Source of the DNA: Pseudomonadota bacterium
GTDB lineage: Bacteria > Pseudomonadota > Gammaproteobacteria > Xanthomonadales > Rhodanobacteraceae
Reading direction: 5' to 3'
DNA: 8,726 nucleotides
Assembly: GCA_021798675.1 (NCBI GenBank)
Contig: JAJZGE010000049.1
Location: forward strand, 1 to 8,726
Shown here piece after piece: positions 1,234-7,136 of the stretch (its first letter is position 1; each line of letters starts with the position of its first letter). The notes under the pieces are model-generated. The model saw only the letters and a program-made list of their open reading frames with translations. It made no database searches and had not been told where the DNA came from. The position numbers and the translations under genes are program-made.

Positions 1234-2403
1234 ATGCACCAACCTTCGAAAACGTGCGTCGTGGCCGCTTCCGCCATGCGGGCCATCGGCGCACTGCTGG
1301 CACTGCTGTGGCTGGGCGGCTGCGTCGCCAGCCCTCTCAAGCCAACGCCCGCGGCTGCTCCGGTGGTGGCTGCACCGGTGCGCCACGTATTCGTGATCGT
1401 GCTGGAGAACGAGCCCTACCAGGTCAGCTTCGGCGCGCATTCGCCGGCGCCGTACCTGGCGCATGACCTGCCCCGGCAGGGCGCGCTGCTGCCGCACTAC
1501 TACGGCATCGGCCACTACAGCCTCGACAACTACATCGCGATGATCAGTGGGCAGGCGCCGAATCCGGCGACCCAGATGGATTGCGCGTTCTACAACGAGT
1601 TCAAGCGCAGCGTGCCGGGGCTGGACGCGCATGGCCAGGCGCTGGGCGCGGGCTGCATCTATCCGTCCGACGTCAAGACGCTGGCCGACCAGCTCGATGC
1701 CGCGGGGCTGAGCTGGAAGGGCTACATGGAGGACATGGGCGCCGACCCTGCCCGCGAGGCGGGCACCTGCGGCCACGTGGCGATCGGCGCCGAGGACTAT
1801 ACCCGGCACGCCAGCGCGAAGGACCAGTACGCCGCCAAGCACGACCCGTTCGTGTACTTCCATTCGATCATCGACGAGCCGGCCCGCTGCGCGCAGCACG
1901 TGGTCAATCTGGATCAGCTGACGCAGGATCTGCAGCGCGTCGACAGCACGCCGAACTTCGCCTTCATCACGCCTGATCTCTGCCACGACGGTCACGATGC
2001 GCCGTGCGCGAACGGCGAACCGGGCGGGCTGCCGTCAGCCGACAAGTTCCTGCGCGAGTGGGTGCCGCGCATCCTTGCCGCGCCCGCGTTCCGCCAGGAC
2101 GGCCTGCTGGTGATCACCTTCGACGAGGGCACCGATGCCAGCGCCTGCTGCGGCGAACGCGGACTGGCGGGCGGTCCGCGGCCGGGCCAGTTCGGCCCCG
2201 GTGGCGGCCGCACCGGCGCGGTGCTGCTGTCGCCGTTCATCGCGCCAGGCACAGTGTCACGCAAGCCGTACAACCACTACAGCCTGCTGCGCACGATCGA
2301 GGACTTCCTCGGCGTGGGCCATCTGGGATACGCCGGTGCGCCAGGCCTGCGCACGTTCGGCACGGACGTGTTCACCGCCGCGCCGGCCGCTCGGCGCTTG
2401 TGA
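1234..2403 (+). CDS. Phosphoesterase-family lipoprotein (acid phosphatase AcpA / phospholipase C-like)
   Basis: A 389-residue protein of the phosphoesterase family PF04185 in the alkaline-phosphatase superfamily, which includes AcpA-type acid phosphatases and phospholipases C. Residues 1-30 form a lipoprotein signal ending in lipobox LGGC with Cys30, so it should be membrane-anchored and face the periplasm or outside. Family marks: VFVIVLENE (52-60; Glu58 and Asn59 at the metal site), YGIGHYSLDNYIAMISGQ (90-107; Ser96 in the expected nucleophile region), ITPDLCHDGHD (245-255; Asp248 and His251), VITFDEG (293-299; Asp297 and Glu298), GRTGAVLLSP (325-334) and NHYSLLRTIEDFLG (347-360; His348). 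The metal and nucleophile set therefore looks intact. The ATG at 1234 is chosen because GGGAAG lies 7 nt upstream; ATG 1276 would also keep the lipobox but lacks a binding site. Substrate is not predictable: phosphomonoesters or phospholipids are both possible. Its TGA lies inside a terminator-like hairpin. Confidence 0.88.
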   Translation: MHQPSKTCVVAASAMRAIGALLALLWLGGCVASPLKPTPAAAPVVAAPVRHVFVIVLENEPYQVSFGAHSPAPYLAHDLPRQGALLPHYYGIGHYSLDNYIAMISGQAPNPATQMDCAFYNEFKRSVPGLDAHGQALGAGCIYPSDVKTLADQLDAAGLSWKGYMEDMGADPAREAGTCGHVAIGAEDYTRHASAKDQYAAKHDPFVYFHSIIDEPARCAQHVVNLDQLTQDLQRVDSTPNFAFITPDLCHDGHDAPCANGEPGGLPSADKFLREWVPRILAAPAFRQDGLLVITFDEGTDASACCGERGLAGGPRPGQFGPGGGRTGAVLLSPFIAPGTVSRKPYNHYSLLRTIEDFLGVGHLGYAGAPGLRTFGTDVFTAAPAARRL

Positions 2404-2430
2404 AGAAAACCACTTCCTGTGGTTTTCTTC
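2402..2430 (+). terminator. Perfect 12-bp stem-loop, probable bidirectional terminator
   Basis: GAAGAAAACCAC (2402-2413), loop TTCCT, GTGGTTTTCTTC (2419-2430). The 12-bp stem has no mismatch. It begins within the TGA stop of the phosphoesterase gene. The A-rich 5' arm and T-rich 3' arm give a CCAC/GTGG core followed by TTTTCTTC, the layout of an intrinsic terminator that works in both directions. It could stop transcripts from both convergent genes. Confidence 0.75.
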
Positions 2431-2465
2431 CATCGCGAGTCCGGCGCATGTCCGGACTCGCGATG
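2431..2465. repeat. Perfect 14-bp inverted repeat (second hairpin in the convergent region)
   Basis: CATCGCGAGTCCGG (2431-2444), 7-nt loop, CCGGACTCGCGATG (2452-2465), with no mismatch. It directly abuts the preceding terminator-like hairpin. It is GC-rich and lacks a flanking T-run, so it is not a classical terminator in isolation. It could block 3' exonucleases, back up termination, or be a copy of a dispersed REP-like palindrome. I see no second copy in this window. Confidence 0.6.
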
Positions 2466-2506
2466 GCGCATCATGCACTGGCGTACCCGATCCGCGACCG
2501 GCGGGC

Positions 2507-2536
2507 CTGAGAGGTTGAATAGTCACAACCTCTCAG
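2507..2536 (-). terminator. Perfect 11-bp hairpin spanning the cfa stop codon
   Basis: CTGAGAGGTTG (2507-2517), 8-nt loop, CAACCTCTCAG (2526-2536), all paired. The TGA stop of cfa (2533-2535 on the minus strand) lies in the stem. No T-run follows on the minus strand, so intrinsic termination is not assured. It may act with the two other hairpins further along, the one at 2402-2430 being the likelier terminator for a transcript arriving from cfa. Confidence 0.5.
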
Positions 2537-3651
2537 CGCGGCACGCGGTAGCCGCCGGCGACGCCGCGCGGGCTCAGTGTGAGCTGCCACAGCTGGTCGC
2601 GGCGGCTGCGGAACACCGCAGCGGAGACCGCGAGGTAATAGCGCCACATGCGCCGGAAGCGCTCGTCGTAGTTCGCCGCAAGCGTGGGCCACGCCGCTTC
2701 CACGTTGTCGCGCCAGGCCATCAGGGTGCGGTCGTAGTCGGCGCCGAAGTTGTGCCAGTCCTCGATCACGAACAGGTTCTCCAGCGCAACGGTGACCTGG
2801 CTGGCCGCGGGGATCATCGAGTTCGGGAAGATGTATTTCTCGATCCACGGATCGGGCTGCGCCGGCGCACCGTGGCTGCCGATGGTGTGCAGCAGCGAGA
2901 GGCCGTCCACCGTCAGGCAGCGCCGCACAGCCTCGAAATAGGTGCGGTAGTTCCTGCCGCCGACGTGCTCGAACATGCCGATCGAATACACCGCGTCGAA
3001 GCGCTCGTCGATATCGCGGTAGTCCTGCAGGCGGATCTCGATCGGCAGCCCTGCGCACAGCGCGCGCGCGTACTCGGCCTGCTCCTGCGAGATGGTGATG
3101 CCGACGCCGGCGACGCCGTAGCGTTCGGCGGCGTATTTCAGCGCCTCGCCCCAGCCGCAGCCGATGTCCAGCACGCGCTGTCCCGGTCGCAGCTGCAGCT
3201 TGCGGCAGACCAGGTCGAGCTTGGCCGCCTGGGCGTCGTCGAGGTTGTCCGCGTTCGCCCAGTAGCCGCAGGAATACACCAGCCGCTGGCCCAGCATCGC
3301 CCGGAACAGGTCGTTGCCGAGGTCGTAGTGCAGCTTGCCCACCTCGAAGGCACGCTCGCCGCGCTGCAGGTTGATGAAGCGCGCCTTGAGGTGTGCCAGC
3401 AGAGCGTCGAGGGTTTTCAGCTCCTGGTCCAGCCCGGCCAGCAGCAGGCGGGTGCACAGGCCGGGCAGGTCGTCGGCATCCCACCAGCCGTCCATGTAGG
3501 CCTCGCCCAGCCCGAGCGAGCCGTGCGCGAACACGCGCGCATACAGGCGCTGGTCGTGCACCCGCAGGTCGGTCGGCGCGCTGCCGTCGAGGCGGATGCC
3601 GGCCTGTTCGAGCAGTTCGCCGGCGCGGTTTCTCAGACTGTCCTGGCCCAT
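2533..3651 (-). CDS. cfa: Cyclopropane-fatty-acyl-phospholipid synthase
   Basis: A 372-residue enzyme, close to E. coli Cfa (382). It adds a methylene group from S-adenosylmethionine across cis double bonds of phospholipid acyl chains at the inner membrane, making cyclopropane fatty acids that lower membrane permeability and aid acid tolerance. The AdoMet site is LDIGCGWG (161-168). Active-site residues of the family are present at a constant offset of 11 from E. coli: Cys128 in YSCGYW, Glu228 in MFEHVG, His255 in LLHTIGS and Tyr306 in NFGADYD. The C-terminus QLWQLTLSPRGVAGGYRVPR resembles that of E. coli Cfa. The ATG at 3651 has GAGGT about 5 nt upstream (3657-3661 on the plus strand). The DUF190 gene ends 36 nt upstream on the same strand and crcB lies before that, with no obvious promoter in the 36-nt gap. 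It is therefore probably the last gene of a fluoride-riboswitch operon, though a promoter inside DUF190 is not excluded. Confidence 0.95.
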   Translation of the reverse strand: MGQDSLRNRAGELLEQAGIRLDGSAPTDLRVHDQRLYARVFAHGSLGLGEAYMDGWWDADDLPGLCTRLLLAGLDQELKTLDALLAHLKARFINLQRGERAFEVGKLHYDLGNDLFRAMLGQRLVYSCGYWANADNLDDAQAAKLDLVCRKLQLRPGQRVLDIGCGWGEALKYAAERYGVAGVGITISQEQAEYARALCAGLPIEIRLQDYRDIDERFDAVYSIGMFEHVGGRNYRTYFEAVRRCLTVDGLSLLHTIGSHGAPAQPDPWIEKYIFPNSMIPAASQVTVALENLFVIEDWHNFGADYDRTLMAWRDNVEAAWPTLAANYDERFRRMWRYYLAVSAAVFRSRRDQLWQLTLSPRGVAGGYRVPR

Positions 3652-3687
3652 GCGTGACCTCGCGTTGAAGGGAGCCCGCGGTGTGAA

Positions 3688-4026
3688 TCAGCGCTTGCCC
3701 AGCACGGCGAAGCTGGCTGTCAAGCGCTCGTAAACCACTTCGACCCCGGCGGCACGCACGCGCTGCAGCAGCAGCTCGGCCTGATCCTCGCGCAGCAGAA
3801 ATTCCACCCGCACCGGCAGATCGTCGGCCAGCTCGAAGAACTGCTCCTCGTGCATCACGCCGTGGCGGCCGAAGCCGGCGATCGCGCGGAACACCGAGCC
3901 GCCGCCGAGGCCGTGGTCGCGCGCCTGTGCCAGCAGCCACTCGGACAGCAGCATGCCGGCGTGCCTGGCGCGCAGGTGGCAGTAGAAATTCAGATGCACG
4001 CCGGTCTGCACGGTTTCCTGATTCAT
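3688..4026 (-). CDS. DUF190 family protein (PII-like fold), CrcB-associated
   Basis: A 112-residue soluble protein of the DUF190 family (PF02641), which has a ferredoxin-like fold related to PII/GlnB signalling proteins. The family pattern is visible: HLNFYCHLRARHAGMLLSEW (11-30), GGGSVFRAIAGFG (41-53), ADDLPVRVEFL (67-77) and an alternating C-terminal region around VEVVYERLTASFAVLG. There is no signal peptide or membrane segment, so it should be cytoplasmic. DUF190 genes are commonly found beside crcB, and some proteins fuse the two (established genomic association), but the molecular role is unknown. Here it starts only 13 nt after the crcB stop, a spacing typical of one operon. The start ATG at 4026 has a weak GGGA-type binding site. 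A regulator or partner of the fluoride channel is the natural guess (inference). Confidence 0.9.
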   Translation of the reverse strand: MNQETVQTGVHLNFYCHLRARHAGMLLSEWLLAQARDHGLGGGSVFRAIAGFGRHGVMHEEQFFELADDLPVRVEFLLREDQAELLLQRVRAAGVEVVYERLTASFAVLGKR

Positions 4027-4039
4027 GCGATTTTCCCGA

Positions 4040-4426
4040 TCAATGGCGCAGCAGGCTGCGGGTCAGCGTGATGCCGAGCACGGTCATCGCCAGCGAACCG
4101 GCGACATGCACCACGACGTGGCCGCTGAACCACAGGTACTGCTGGCGCAGCAGCAGCGTGGCGGACTCCGCCGAAAAGGTCGAGAACGTGGTCAGGCCAC
4201 CGAGGAAGCCGGTGAACACGAACAGCCGCAGCGCTGGCGGCAGCGTCTGGAAATGATCGAACAGGCCCATCACGCAGCCCATCAGCAGGCCGCCGGCCAA
4301 GTTGGCCGCCAGCGTGCCCAGCGGCAGCGTGGGAAACAACGGGTTGAGCAGCACACCCAGCCCCCAGCGCAACCAGCAGCCGATCATGCCGCCGATGCCA
4401 ACTGCCACAAATCCGGTAAACCCCAC
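4040..4426 (-). CDS. crcB: Fluoride ion channel/exporter CrcB (Fluc)
   Basis: A 128-residue inner-membrane protein of the Fluc/CrcB family, which works as an antiparallel dimer and lets F- leave the cytoplasm. It is the usual length and has four hydrophobic segments. Diagnostic motifs: GGMIGCWLRW (12-21; Arg20), GTLAANLAGG (37-46; Asn42), and FTGFLGGLTTFSTFSAE (71-87), where Phe81 and Phe84 match the pore phenylalanines of characterised Fluc channels. The start is a GTG at 4426, chosen because AGGAG (4435-4439 on the plus strand) lies 8 nt upstream and because the protein then begins just before the first membrane helix. A fluoride riboswitch and promoter lie upstream, and DUF190 and cfa follow on the same strand. 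Confidence 0.95.
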   Translation of the reverse strand: MGFTGFVAVGIGGMIGCWLRWGLGVLLNPLFPTLPLGTLAANLAGGLLMGCVMGLFDHFQTLPPALRLFVFTGFLGGLTTFSTFSAESATLLLRQQYLWFSGHVVVHVAGSLAMTVLGITLTRSLLRH

Positions 4427-4469
4427 GAGCGCGTCTCCTGACAGAGTTAAGTGTCCGGTTGCCGCGGTG

Positions 4470-4508
4470 GCAGGCACGCCTGCGCCGCCGGAAGCCGGTG
4501 GTGCAGGC
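4470..4508 (-). promoter_or_regulatory. Candidate expression platform of the fluoride riboswitch: competing hairpins
   Basis: On the minus strand GCCTGC (4508-4503) can pair with GCAGGC (4483-4478), and that same GCAGGC can instead pair with GCCTGC (4475-4470). The first pairing uses bases 4506-4508, which are also needed for the riboswitch pseudoknot, so ligand binding and the upstream hairpin should exclude each other. No T-run follows, so an ordinary intrinsic terminator is not evident; translational or Rho-dependent control is possible. The AGGAG binding site of crcB is a further 30 nt downstream. Pairing is seen; the switching role is inferred. Confidence 0.45.
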
Positions 4509-4596
4509 ATCATCAGCCTCAACGTCGAAGGGTGAGAGGCGGTTGGTCGCGCGCACGCCGGTGGCTCGCGCGCGACGGGAGGCATGCCATCTCCCG
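4503..4596 (-). promoter_or_regulatory. Fluoride riboswitch (crcB motif) upstream of crcB
   Basis: All core parts of the crcB-motif RNA are present on the minus strand. P1 is CGGGAG (4596-4591) with CTCCCG (4581-4576), closing the loop ATGGCATGC. The loop segment GGCAT (4588-4584) pairs with ATGCC (4510-4506) to form the pseudoknot. AACCGCC (about 4544-4538) and GGCTGATG (about 4518-4511) are the conserved strings flanking P3 (GCCTC 4540-4536 with GAGGC 4520-4516). An extra hairpin, about 8 bp of GC (4546-4553 with 4568-4575), sits in the variable region between P1 and P3. The RNA ends about 77 nt before the crcB GTG, the gene this class most often controls; binding F- normally turns expression on. 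Identification is by eye against the known consensus. Confidence 0.93.
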
Positions 4597-4604
4597 AAGG
4601 CTCA

Positions 4605-4635
4605 ATCGTAGTCGATCGGGGCGGTTGCCCGTCAA
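4605..4635 (-). promoter_or_regulatory. Putative promoter of the riboswitch-crcB-DUF190-cfa transcript
   Basis: Minus strand: TTGACG (plus-strand 4635-4630), a 19-nt spacer, then TACGAT (4610-4605; four of six match the -10 consensus). The expected start is near 4598, placing P1 of the riboswitch at the very 5' end of the RNA, as is typical. The spacer is about 2 nt longer than ideal, so the promoter may be weak or activator-assisted. Confidence 0.5.
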
Positions 4636-4669
4636 GCGCCACACGTTCCGCAGGATTCTCGGCCGGCCC

Positions 4670-4675
4670 TATACT
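4670..4675 (+). promoter_or_regulatory. Putative -10 element for the MFS transporter gene
   Basis: TATACT matches five of six positions of the -10 consensus. Transcription would start near 4682, giving a leader of about 28 nt before the ATG at 4710. No good -35 is visible at the right distance (TTCCGC at 4646 is poor). The position excludes in-frame upstream starts at 4584 and 4677, which would lie upstream of the transcript's start. Confidence 0.4.
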
Positions 4676-4709
4676 CATGCGGCCTCTTTCCTGTCCGCCA
4701 CGTCCCGCC

Positions 4710-5978
4710 ATGCATGCAACCCCGCGCACCGTGCAGCGCAGCCTGCCCTGGCTGCTGGCCGCGGTGTCGATGATCGGACCGTTCTCGATCGACGCGGTGT
4801 TTCCGGCGTTTCCGCTGATCGGCGCCCGCTTCGGGGTGGATGCGGCCGCGTTGCAGCAGCTGCTCAGCGTGTATCTGATCACCTACGCCGCGATGAGCCT
4901 GTTCCACGGGGCGATTTCCGATGCGATCGGGCGCAAGCCGGTGATGGTCGGCGGCATCCTGGTGTACGCGCTGGCCTCGGTCGGCGCGGCGCGTTCGACC
5001 TCGTTCGCGATGCTGCTGGGCTGTCGCGCCCTGCAGGGCGTGTGCGCGGGTGCGGGCCTGGTGGTGGGCCGCGCGCTGATCCGCGACAGTCTGGAGGGCG
5101 CCGCCGCGCAGCGGCTGATGTCGCGCGTGATGATGATTTTCGGCGTGGCGCCGGTGATCGCGCCGATGGTCGGCGCGCTGCTGCTGCCGCTCGGCGGCTG
5201 GCACGGCATCTTCTGGGTGCTCACCGGATTCACCGCGCTGCTGGCGCTGGCGCTGGCCTTGCTGCTGCAGGAAAGCCACCCGCTCGAGCGGCGCACCTCG
5301 TTCGCGCCGCGTCCGCTGCTGGCGAGCTATCGCGCGTTCGGTCGCGACCGGCTGTTCTGGCCGCTGCTGATTTCCAGTTCGGTCAACTTTGCCGGGCTGT
5401 TCCTGTACATCGCCTCGGCACCGGGCATCGTGCGTGGCCTGCTGCGGCTGCCGGCGCAAGGCTTTCCGTGGCTGTTCGTGCCGGTGGTGCTGGGCCTGGT
5501 CGGCGGCGCCTGGTTGTCCGGTCGGCTGGCCGGGCGGCGCAGCGCGCAGTTCACGCTGAACCTCGGCTACGCGATGCTGCTGCTGGCATGCGCCCTGCAT
5601 CTGCTGCTGGCGTGGGTGTGGGCGGCGCCGCGGCTGCCGTGGTCGGTGCTGCCGCTGATCGTGCATGGAATTGGCGTGCAGCTGGCGTTTCCCACCCTCA
5701 CGCTGCTGCTGCTGGACCGGTTTCCGCAGCAGCGTGGCGGCATTTCCTCGGTGCAGGCGTTTGCCAGCCTGCTGCTGTGCAGCGTGGTCGCCGGCGTGCT
5801 GTCGCCGCTGCTCTCCGCCAGCATGCTGCAGCTGGCGCTGGGAGCCACCGCGCTGACCGTGATCGGCGCGCTCTCATGGTGCTGGTACGGCGCGATCAGC
5901 CGCCGGCCGCTGGCTCGGCCGCTGGCGTCGGCGGATGCCGGCATGGCGCTGCAGGCGGACATCGTCGAGCCGCACTGA
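4710..5978 (+). CDS. Bcr/CflA-family multidrug efflux transporter (MFS)
   Basis: A 422-residue inner-membrane protein with about 12 hydrophobic segments, the size of Bcr/CflA drug:H+ antiporters of the major facilitator superfamily. Marks: FSIDAVFPAFP (25-35) in helix 1, the loop 2-3 motif A as GAISDAIGRKPVM (67-79), CRALQGVCAGAGLVVGRALI (105-124) in helix 4, and the antiporter motif C-like stretch GVAPVIAPMVGALLLPLGGW (145-164). These match Bcr (bicyclomycin/sulfonamide resistance), but the substrate cannot be read from sequence. The ATG at 4710 is chosen from helix 1 position and the TATACT element; no purine-rich binding site is seen before it. It diverges from the fluoride operon, and its stop lies 27 nt from the convergent DUF2235 gene with no clear terminator between. 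Confidence 0.9.
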   Translation: MHATPRTVQRSLPWLLAAVSMIGPFSIDAVFPAFPLIGARFGVDAAALQQLLSVYLITYAAMSLFHGAISDAIGRKPVMVGGILVYALASVGAARSTSFAMLLGCRALQGVCAGAGLVVGRALIRDSLEGAAAQRLMSRVMMIFGVAPVIAPMVGALLLPLGGWHGIFWVLTGFTALLALALALLLQESHPLERRTSFAPRPLLASYRAFGRDRLFWPLLISSSVNFAGLFLYIASAPGIVRGLLRLPAQGFPWLFVPVVLGLVGGAWLSGRLAGRRSAQFTLNLGYAMLLLACALHLLLAWVWAAPRLPWSVLPLIVHGIGVQLAFPTLTLLLLDRFPQQRGGISSVQAFASLLLCSVVAGVLSPLLSASMLQLALGATALTVIGALSWCWYGAISRRPLARPLASADAGMALQADIVEPH

Positions 5979-6005
5979 GGGCTGGCGCAAGGCCGCTGGC
6001 GCTAT

Positions 6006-7136
6006 TCATGCGGGCCGCGGCGCGGGCGGCACCACCGCCTCGATCGACATCAACACCGCCCCGCGCGCCAGCGCATGCGCCAGCGTCGGCGAACGGTAGC
6101 CGGGGTCCGCCAGCCAGCGTTGCCAGACCGAGTCGTCCACCTTTTCGTTGACGCCGGTGCCGAACGTGCGGTCGAACGGCGGCTTGAACAGCCGGTACAG
6201 GCCGCCCATGAACTCCGCATACGAATTGCGCGGCACACCGGTGTTGGCGTCGGCCGCCGGGACCACCTGCGCGCTGCAGCCCAGGCCCGCTGCGATCGCC
6301 TTGCGTTGCAGCCACGCCAGCGGCAGCTCGGGCAGCGGATCGGGCCGGCGTCCCGCGCCGTCGCGCAGGTAACCGCCGCCCACGTCGCCATGCGCGCCGA
6401 TGAACCAGCGCTGCTCGATCTCCACCTGCTCGGGCTTCTTCGCGGTGAGCGACTCGCCGGGTTTCAGGGTGTCCGGGTTGCGCGTCCACACGGTCGGCGC
6501 GAAATCGGCGCGGTGCTCGTCCAGCGCCAGTGCCTGATAGGCGTAGCGCACGATCTTGCTCAGCTCGGTGTCGTGAAACTGGTAGCGCGCGCGGGCGAAC
6601 GGAAACCACGAGGCGGTGTCGGGTATGCCCAGCGCGCCGACCGTATCCCACACGCCGATGAAGTGGATCGCGATCTCGATCGCGCGCCGCGCGCGCCATT
6701 CCACCGCTGCCGGATCGCCCGGCTTGGTCGCGCCGTCGCGATAGAAAGCGTAGGCGGCGACAATTTCCGCTGCGGCGACCTTGCCGTCGGCGCCGCGCCG
6801 CAGCAGGCCGCATTTGCGGATCATGCCGCCGAGGCTGCGCGCGGTGTACGCGCCGCGGCTGAAGCCGAACAGGTACAGCTGGTCGCCCGGCTGCCACGTC
6901 TCGCACAGCCAGCGGTAGCCGTCGCGCACATGGCCCGACAGGCCGTAGCCGAACGCGCCACCCAGCACGTGGCTGAGCCCGGCCGACACGCCCACGCCGG
7001 CGATGTAGTTGAGCAGCTGCGGGTTGCCGTCGGCGTCCTGCGCAGCGATCAGCTGGCGCAGGCGCTCCACGTTGGTATTCGACTCCGGCTTGTTCCAGGT
7101 GCCGTCGAACAGCAGCACCAGTCGACGCGTGGCCAT
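6006..7136 (-). CDS. DUF2235 alpha/beta hydrolase (Tle1-like lipase superfamily member)
   Basis: A 376-residue protein of family DUF2235 (PF09994), alpha/beta-hydrolase-like enzymes that include the Tle1 phospholipase effectors of type VI secretion. Marks in order: LVLLFDGTWN (6-15), the nucleophile elbow GFSRGAYTAR (91-100; Ser93), FIGVWDTVGALGIP (159-172; Asp164) and FIGAHGDVGGGY (245-256; His249, Asp251). The Ser-Asp-His set looks complete, so an esterase or phospholipase activity is expected, with unknown substrate. There is no signal peptide, no visible N-terminal delivery domain and no VgrG, PAAR or immunity gene nearby, so calling it a secreted toxin is not supported here. The ATG at 7136 has GGAGG 6 nt upstream, a strong binding site; an upstream in-frame start at 7199 is therefore rejected. 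The GT9 gene ends 91 nt upstream on the same strand. Confidence 0.9.
   Translation of the reverse strand: MATRRLVLLFDGTWNKPESNTNVERLRQLIAAQDADGNPQLLNYIAGVGVSAGLSHVLGGAFGYGLSGHVRDGYRWLCETWQPGDQLYLFGFSRGAYTARSLGGMIRKCGLLRRGADGKVAAAEIVAAYAFYRDGATKPGDPAAVEWRARRAIEIAIHFIGVWDTVGALGIPDTASWFPFARARYQFHDTELSKIVRYAYQALALDEHRADFAPTVWTRNPDTLKPGESLTAKKPEQVEIEQRWFIGAHGDVGGGYLRDGAGRRPDPLPELPLAWLQRKAIAAGLGCSAQVVPAADANTGVPRNSYAEFMGGLYRLFKPPFDRTFGTGVNEKVDDSVWQRWLADPGYRSPTLAHALARGAVLMSIEAVVPPAPRPA

Follow-up and report, generated by a model that had tools for sequence, protein, structure and literature searches.

We analysed an 8,726-nt stretch of DNA from a bacterium of the Rhodanobacteraceae (assembly GCA_021798675.1, contig JAJZGE010000049.1; hereafter the window), for which an initial annotation had proposed a fluoride-responsive operon ending in cfa, a predicted gene for cyclopropane fatty acyl phospholipid synthase. 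A fluoride riboswitch, crcB, a DUF190 gene and cfa lie in this order on the minus strand, 13 nt (4027-4039) separating crcB from DUF190 and 36 nt (3652-3687) separating DUF190 from cfa; this arrangement, as annotated, was borne out by the RF01734 match, the profile matches and the coordinates. The annotated span, 2533..4596, ends 7 nt short of the 5' end of the aptamer at 4603.

The first gene, crcB (4040..4426, minus strand; 128 aa from a GTG start that we chose), encodes a predicted Fluc-type fluoride channel. It matched PF02537 with 96.3 bits, NF010792 with 148.7 bits against a cut-off of 125, and the solved Fluc channel 5a43 at E 3.3e-26, and the curated model and the structure alignment place it among the Fluc/CrcB fluoride channels. 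The DUF190 protein (3688..4026, minus strand; 112 aa; PF02641, 65.6 bits) is a relative of the hypothetical protein TM0021 (1o51), and a search of the NCBIfam models with it gave zero matches. The third gene, cfa (2533..3651, minus strand; 372 aa), scored 580.9 bits with NF008686 against a cut-off of 400, covering profile positions 13-383 of 383, and its product aligned across residues 7-372 with the solved synthase 6bqc (437.6 bits), which we take to be the E. coli Cfa enzyme. Five residues at the bicarbonate-site positions, presumably C139, E239, H266, I268 and Y317, are the same in both. By curated full-length score the window gene encodes an E. coli-type cyclopropane fatty acid synthase, with a cyclopropane product predicted. 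The Cfa of a proteobacterial metagenome-assembled genome (MAG; L015) is 99% identical to it over 317 columns. In a Cfa tree of 88 rows, from which L094 was excluded as too distant and the duplicates L099 and L100 were dropped, the window belongs to a clade of 16 rows (support 100/99), the others being this MAG, 13 rows from Rhodanobacter and one from a Dyella sp.

The two gaps had been described as free of promoters and terminators, and our scan of positions 2380-4760 agreed. A strict promoter search (16-18 nt spacers) returned 0 sites, with 0.3 expected by chance, and the terminator search gave two weak candidates (chance 1.0, sd 1.0), both within coding regions, those of crcB and DUF190; neither kind of site was found in either gap. 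The hairpin noted at the end of cfa exists, as a 10-bp stem beginning at the stop codon (2508..2535, minus strand; z -5.14), but it has no U tract, and the terminator-like hairpin lies further on, at 2402..2430. The latter is terminator-like in both directions by score (z -6.15 on the minus strand, -6.00 on the plus strand) and is placed between cfa and a convergent phosphoesterase-family gene.

The leader upstream of crcB

RF01734 was the sole Rfam match at the gathering threshold in the window (4603-4497, minus strand; 37.4 bits, cut-off 34; E 1.3e-7). In an alignment of 22 relatives selected by motif (A1), the P1, P3 and pseudoknot positions were paired in 96.9% of 286 cells, with compensatory changes on both sides in 5 of the 13 aptamer pairs, and 0 of 500 shuffles reached the observed pairing. 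By score and by pairing the leader at 4497..4603 is a member of the RF01734 fluoride riboswitch family, and a response to fluoride is predicted. The aptamer carries a GC-rich stem of ~30 nt inserted 5' of the AACCGCC strand; this long extra stem varies in length across Rhodanobacter and is missing in Dyella ginsengisoli (L020) and others. Directly 5' of the aptamer we read a promoter-like pattern (4605..4635, minus strand), TTGACG (4635-4630) and TACGAT (4610-4605) with a 19-nt spacer. Of 46 related leaders, 19 have the form TTGAC[GA]-19-TAnnnT ahead of the aptamer, so that the pattern is not general, and 0 have it with a spacer of 16-18 nt. We count the pattern as weak evidence, since its spacer lies outside the 16-18 nt scanned.

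The leader could form an alternative structure. The strand ATGCCTGC (4503..4510, minus strand), which contains the aptamer strand that makes up the 3' side of the pseudoknot, would be the 5' arm of a proposed anti-aptamer hairpin, and GCAGGCGT (4476..4483, minus strand), downstream of the aptamer, its 3' arm in the OFF state. The minimum-free-energy fold of the window leader shows the two paired, and the helix exceeds composition shuffles at p 0.04. The best anti-aptamer helix did so at p<=0.05 in 27 of 52 leaders, which are related and do not amount to 52 independent tests. We then exchanged strands among 13 leaders, one per distinct 4-mer, at fixed helix length: own strands paired better than exchanged ones, with 2 of 5000 permutations reaching the observed sum, and by this measure the anti-aptamer complementarity covaries among leaders.

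Recurrence of the cluster among Cfa relatives

Riboswitches across loci and genomes were detected by Rfam and by covariance model, and loci were compared for the best 80 of at least 589 confirmed Cfa relatives. At 47 of these 80 loci the arrangement is complete, cfa being preceded on its own strand by the riboswitch, crcB and DUF190. Partial forms were crcB and DUF190 without a detected riboswitch (2/80; L032 and L060), the riboswitch alone with cfa (1/80; L040) and DUF190 alone with cfa (1/80; L044, a 4.4-kb contig in which the two genes are 2.2 kb apart). Where both flanks were available (39 loci), neighbouring frames picked mechanically fell into 12 groups before the riboswitch and 21 after cfa, the largest holding 11/39 on either side. 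The flanking genes thus vary more than the cluster, which therefore outlives its surroundings. Of the 50 loci with DUF190, 7 show an overlap of 4 nt (ATGA) between this gene and cfa, which may reflect translational coupling. At six loci (L037, L038, L041, L045, L046 and L048) DUF190 and cfa are separated by a frame of ~1.2 kb, which in all six reads as one kind of MFS transporter, confirmed by Pfam for L041. A similar MFS frame occurs in L081 after an unassigned frame of 150 aa that has no Pfam match at 1e-5, downstream of another riboswitch.

The linkage was also followed in a family sample of 147 genomes centred on G001, the genome of locus L003. Riboswitch matches were found in 101 of these genomes, 82 of them over the cut-off (the filters were strict and weak matches were lost), and Cfa matches in 140. 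We joined the matches listed, 150 for the riboswitch (97 genomes) and 134 for Cfa at E<1e-120 (131 genomes); distant Cfa homologues were dropped, and nine genomes hold only such homologues. By these matches 95 genomes have both a riboswitch and a strong Cfa, and in 85 of them cfa follows a riboswitch of its own strand at a distance of up to 6 kb. The 86 Cfa genes concerned sit 154-3430 nt downstream of it, and the commonest distances, 812-945 nt, fit an intervening crcB-DUF190. G001 itself is linked too, and stands outside the 85 since its riboswitch is not among the matches listed. In this family cfa recurrently lies downstream of a same-strand fluoride riboswitch, which by position makes it a predicted regulon gene. 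The linkage, on which the initial annotation had made its proposal depend, is kept in related genera; its family-wide recurrence, and the direct riboswitch-cfa units described below, go beyond what that annotation contained.

cfa behind a riboswitch of its own

In five genomes a riboswitch over the Rfam cut-off is followed by a cfa over the NF008686 cut-off with no gene between them. The riboswitches of these direct units scored 35.1 bits (G002, locus L040), 34.3 bits (G030, L083), 46.8 bits (G131, L084, whose protein was scanned from residue 19), 49.1 bits (G014, L081) and 49.9 bits (G617, L101). A sixth genome (G136, L094) has a riboswitch (44.9 bits) 180 nt 5' of a CfaB-like gene, which scored 449.3 bits with NF040703, below the cut-off of 650. 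Four of the five genomes hold crcB-DUF190 elsewhere with a riboswitch match of its own (33.9 bits in G002, 41.4 in G030, 32.1 in G131 and 33.1 in G617, three of them slightly below the cut-off of 34), and cfa is therefore not merely riding along with crcB. In G014 a riboswitch lies 854 nt before one cfa, and the second, direct unit is on another contig. In the Cfa tree the direct units are divided between two well-supported clades, one formed by L081 and L101 and the other by L040 and L083 to L086. Nothing else speaks as strongly for selection acting on the fluoride control of cfa itself, and the control of cfa by fluoride put forward in the initial annotation is strongly supported by this comparison.

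In L083-L087 and L081, a riboswitch-led operon resembling hydrogenase-4 or complex I lies divergently beside cfa; it was recognised by PF00146 in L081 and L083 and by PF00361 in L083, the remaining genes being read by eye. The Rfam and covariance-model searches detected no riboswitch on the cfa strand of L085-L087, nor did a reading of the L085 leader. This neighbourhood suggests that Cfa might tune the membrane for the hydrogenase-4-like proton-translocating complexes of such islands instead of acting on fluoride entry, and hydrogenase-4-like proteins are annotated in the Burkholderia plasmid islands described below as well. Neither the window nor the frames listed for crcB-DUF190-cfa loci include such an operon, and we regard this explanation as very unlikely.

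Several contigs read as fluoride islands (C3 and C10 of G136, C35 of G083, C4 of G012 and C40 of G014), and the four genomes they belong to lead the family sample in number of riboswitch matches (14, 10, 9 and 8). At positions 340-900 of L040, the frame after a fluoride riboswitch resembles, by eye, an enolase minus its middle part, either an assembly error or a remnant.

Fluoride might also inhibit Cfa or the supply of its methyl donor, with a larger amount of enzyme compensating, as has been argued for enolase and pyrophosphatase in fluoride operons. We know of no report that fluoride inhibits Cfa, and no search was aimed at it. Frames resembling enolase by eye (in L040 and L094) and ATPases of MutS type (PF00488; L040) do occur in the same islands as cfa, and Enterobacter cloacae FRM is described, in passages of PMC5533749, as producing additional copies of fluoride-inhibited enzymes. 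The riboswitch-linked Cfa is, by contrast, usually the sole strong match listed for its genome and not an extra copy, and replacement of an inhibited enzyme thus appears quite unlikely here.

Probable fluoride control of a membrane-lipid enzyme

The DNA itself shows which parts are present and in what order, that the linkage recurs, that cfa has private riboswitches in other genomes and that the anti-aptamer complementarity covaries. On this we base an account that, taken whole, we consider likely: crcB, DUF190 and cfa would form one transcription unit led by a fluoride ON riboswitch, with Cfa modifying the membrane. In the absence of fluoride, the aptamer 3' strand would pair with the downstream anti-aptamer strand and expression would be low. 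Binding of Mg-fluoride would lock the pseudoknotted aptamer and disrupt the anti-aptamer hairpin, so that crcB (for fluoride export), DUF190 and cfa would be expressed together. Cfa would then cyclopropanate membrane phospholipids, most likely reducing the leak of protons and/or hydrogen fluoride (HF) under weak-acid fluoride stress. What we infer is that the three genes are co-transcribed in the window, that fluoride induces them, that the switch acts in the ON direction in the living cell and that cyclopropane lipids are protective; that cfa belongs to the fluoride regulon is very probable.

Several observations weigh against this account. First, at 10 of the 80 Cfa loci (L035, L039, L047, L051, L053, L054, L056, L057, L061 and L065), from Luteibacter, Dokdonella, Rudaea and two MAGs, crcB adjoins cfa with neither a DUF190 match nor a detected riboswitch. 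An unfiltered search of eight of them (Luteibacter, Dokdonella and one MAG) gave no riboswitch 5' of crcB at E<0.01, and a search of the other two with default filters only gave none; a 19.8-bit riboswitch match in L047 sits elsewhere, on the opposite strand and not before crcB. A further 19 of the 80 loci, mostly from Lysobacteraceae such as Pseudoxanthomonas and Luteimonas, have no riboswitch, crcB or DUF190. Second, ten of the 95 family genomes are unlinked on the same strand (G011, G013, G015, G037, G047, G051, G060, G076, G087 and G115), and in G047, G060 and G087 the nearest riboswitch faces away from cfa, into a hydrogenase-4-like operon. Third, linkage was seen in 0 of 19 riboswitch genomes of a class sample (350 genomes) and in 0 of 51 further ones of a phylum sample (398 genomes, 56 with a riboswitch, five of them already covered), positions in both being compared by eye from the listed places; a CMAS-family gene is nevertheless present somewhere in 18 genomes of the first set and 45 of the second. 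Lastly, leader L059 went against the trend in the fixed-length test, all 12 strands from other leaders pairing better than its own, the anti-aptamer helix is unconvincing in the direct cfa leaders (1/6 at p<=0.05), and the anti-aptamer hairpin of the window has no U tract. Control might thus run through Rho, translation or some other route; if it acted only at crcB translation, cfa, as the third gene, could largely escape it.

A housekeeping or stationary-phase cfa might, moreover, adjoin crcB-DUF190 simply by descent, transcribed from its own promoter in or before DUF190, with no meaningful fluoride control. The linkage is chiefly one family's inheritance, and crcB-cfa is kept in lineages without a detected riboswitch. 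The strong Cfa match (E<1e-120) is the sole such match listed in 128 of 131 family genomes, so that the riboswitch-linked enzyme must also serve ordinary needs. Mere adjacency accounts poorly for the private riboswitches that precede cfa in five genomes and a CfaB-like gene in one more, for flanks that vary more than the cluster, for the 4-nt DUF190/cfa overlaps and for the Burkholderia plasmid islands, and we judge it unlikely.

In a wider sample, drawn from the order, riboswitches were detected in 35 of 180 genomes; 19 of these were already in the family sample, and one of the other 16 was linked (G617). On plasmids, 13 stretches were examined of 48 Cfa-matching records, and three, all from Burkholderia, carry a riboswitch, crcB and then cfa. 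The B. multivorans plasmid (L113) has a riboswitch of 48.8 bits, crcB and an intact cfa whose product is 56% identical to that of the window. The three plasmids have four riboswitch matches each in 13 kb (by Rfam for L113 and by model R1 for all three), and the R1 search found none in the other ten Cfa plasmid stretches examined. They came up through the Cfa search; a plasmid search with the window CrcB gave nothing at 1e-12. Linkage of riboswitch and cfa is thus common in one group and rare yet present elsewhere. In the two Burkholderia cenocepacia plasmids (L115 and L116), the cfa match after riboswitch and crcB, at 6001-7081, is split in two and unannotated. The plasmid cfa of E. hormaechei FRM (L109) was considered as a fluoride-controlled gene and set aside, no fluoride riboswitch being found within 12 kb of it.

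Cyclopropane lipids reduce proton permeability. Combining this with the weak-acid entry of HF and the role of Cfa under acid, we suggest that cyclopropanation may protect against HF and acid stress. E. coli cfa is regulated by stationary-phase and stress signals and, unlike the genes described here, is not known to be under a fluoride riboswitch. Its enzyme belongs to the same family as the window Cfa and acts in acid resistance according to passages of PMC7083825, which cites Chang and Cronan 1999, and passages of PMC11139923 describe HF as accumulating as a weak acid and acidifying the cytoplasm. Fluoride-switched cyclopropanation could then be a dedicated membrane arm of resistance, the lipid change slowing re-entry of HF and protons while CrcB exports fluoride, in a module assembled more than once. 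We advance this extended idea tentatively, giving it a little less than even credence. The putative separate assemblies are the crcB operon, the private cfa riboswitch, the CfaB-like paralogue and the plasmid islands in another class.

Known RF01734 regulons resemble the cluster in the aptamer and in having the crcB exporter as first gene, and they resemble the islands of its relatives in MutS-like and hydrogenase-4/formate-hydrogenlyase-like genes and in enolase-like frames (by eye). They differ in that a membrane-lipid enzyme is added here, either closing the operon or led by a riboswitch of its own. Passages of PMC2864571 name mutS, K+/Cl- transport and formate hydrogen lyase as associated genes, and those of PMC11139923 name exporters, Na+/H+ antiporters (the second commonest riboswitch-linked class, after exporters), pyrophosphatase, HAD phosphatases, enolase and formate hydrogen lyase, with chorismate mutase found near fluoride exporters. 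The ppaC-uspA-eno-gpmA-crcB-orf5249 operon of Enterobacter cloacae FRM is likewise polycistronic and riboswitch-led, and is fluoride-induced there, but cfa is not among its six genes as given in passages of PMC5533749, whose main text contains neither 'cyclopropane' nor 'cfa'. Nor is the word 'cyclopropane' used anywhere in the main text of PMC11139923, PMC7266159, PMC10790756, PMC13273304 or PMC2864571; PMC12421806 has it once, concerning a substrate. Literature searches, mostly at title level and covering few subscription papers, found no cfa described as a fluoride-riboswitch gene. We therefore provisionally retain the view of the initial annotation that cfa is an undescribed gene of the fluoride regulon.

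Fluoride defence, as the reviewed passages present it, consists of export, pH and phosphate homeostasis and the replacement of inhibited enzymes, and the recurrence of riboswitch and cfa in related soil bacteria may add membrane remodelling as an unlisted part. If cfa is fluoride-switched, bacteria would also alter the membrane that HF crosses; cyclopropane lipids would be expected to rise with NaF, and their loss to be most harmful at low pH. A gene usually seen as belonging to stationary phase would gain a defined chemical inducer, and the finding would bear on engineered hosts that face fluoride set free from organofluorines.

Elsewhere in the window, positions 6006-7136 on the minus strand hold a gene with the catalytic domain of a Tle1-like phospholipase of the type VI secretion system (PF09994).

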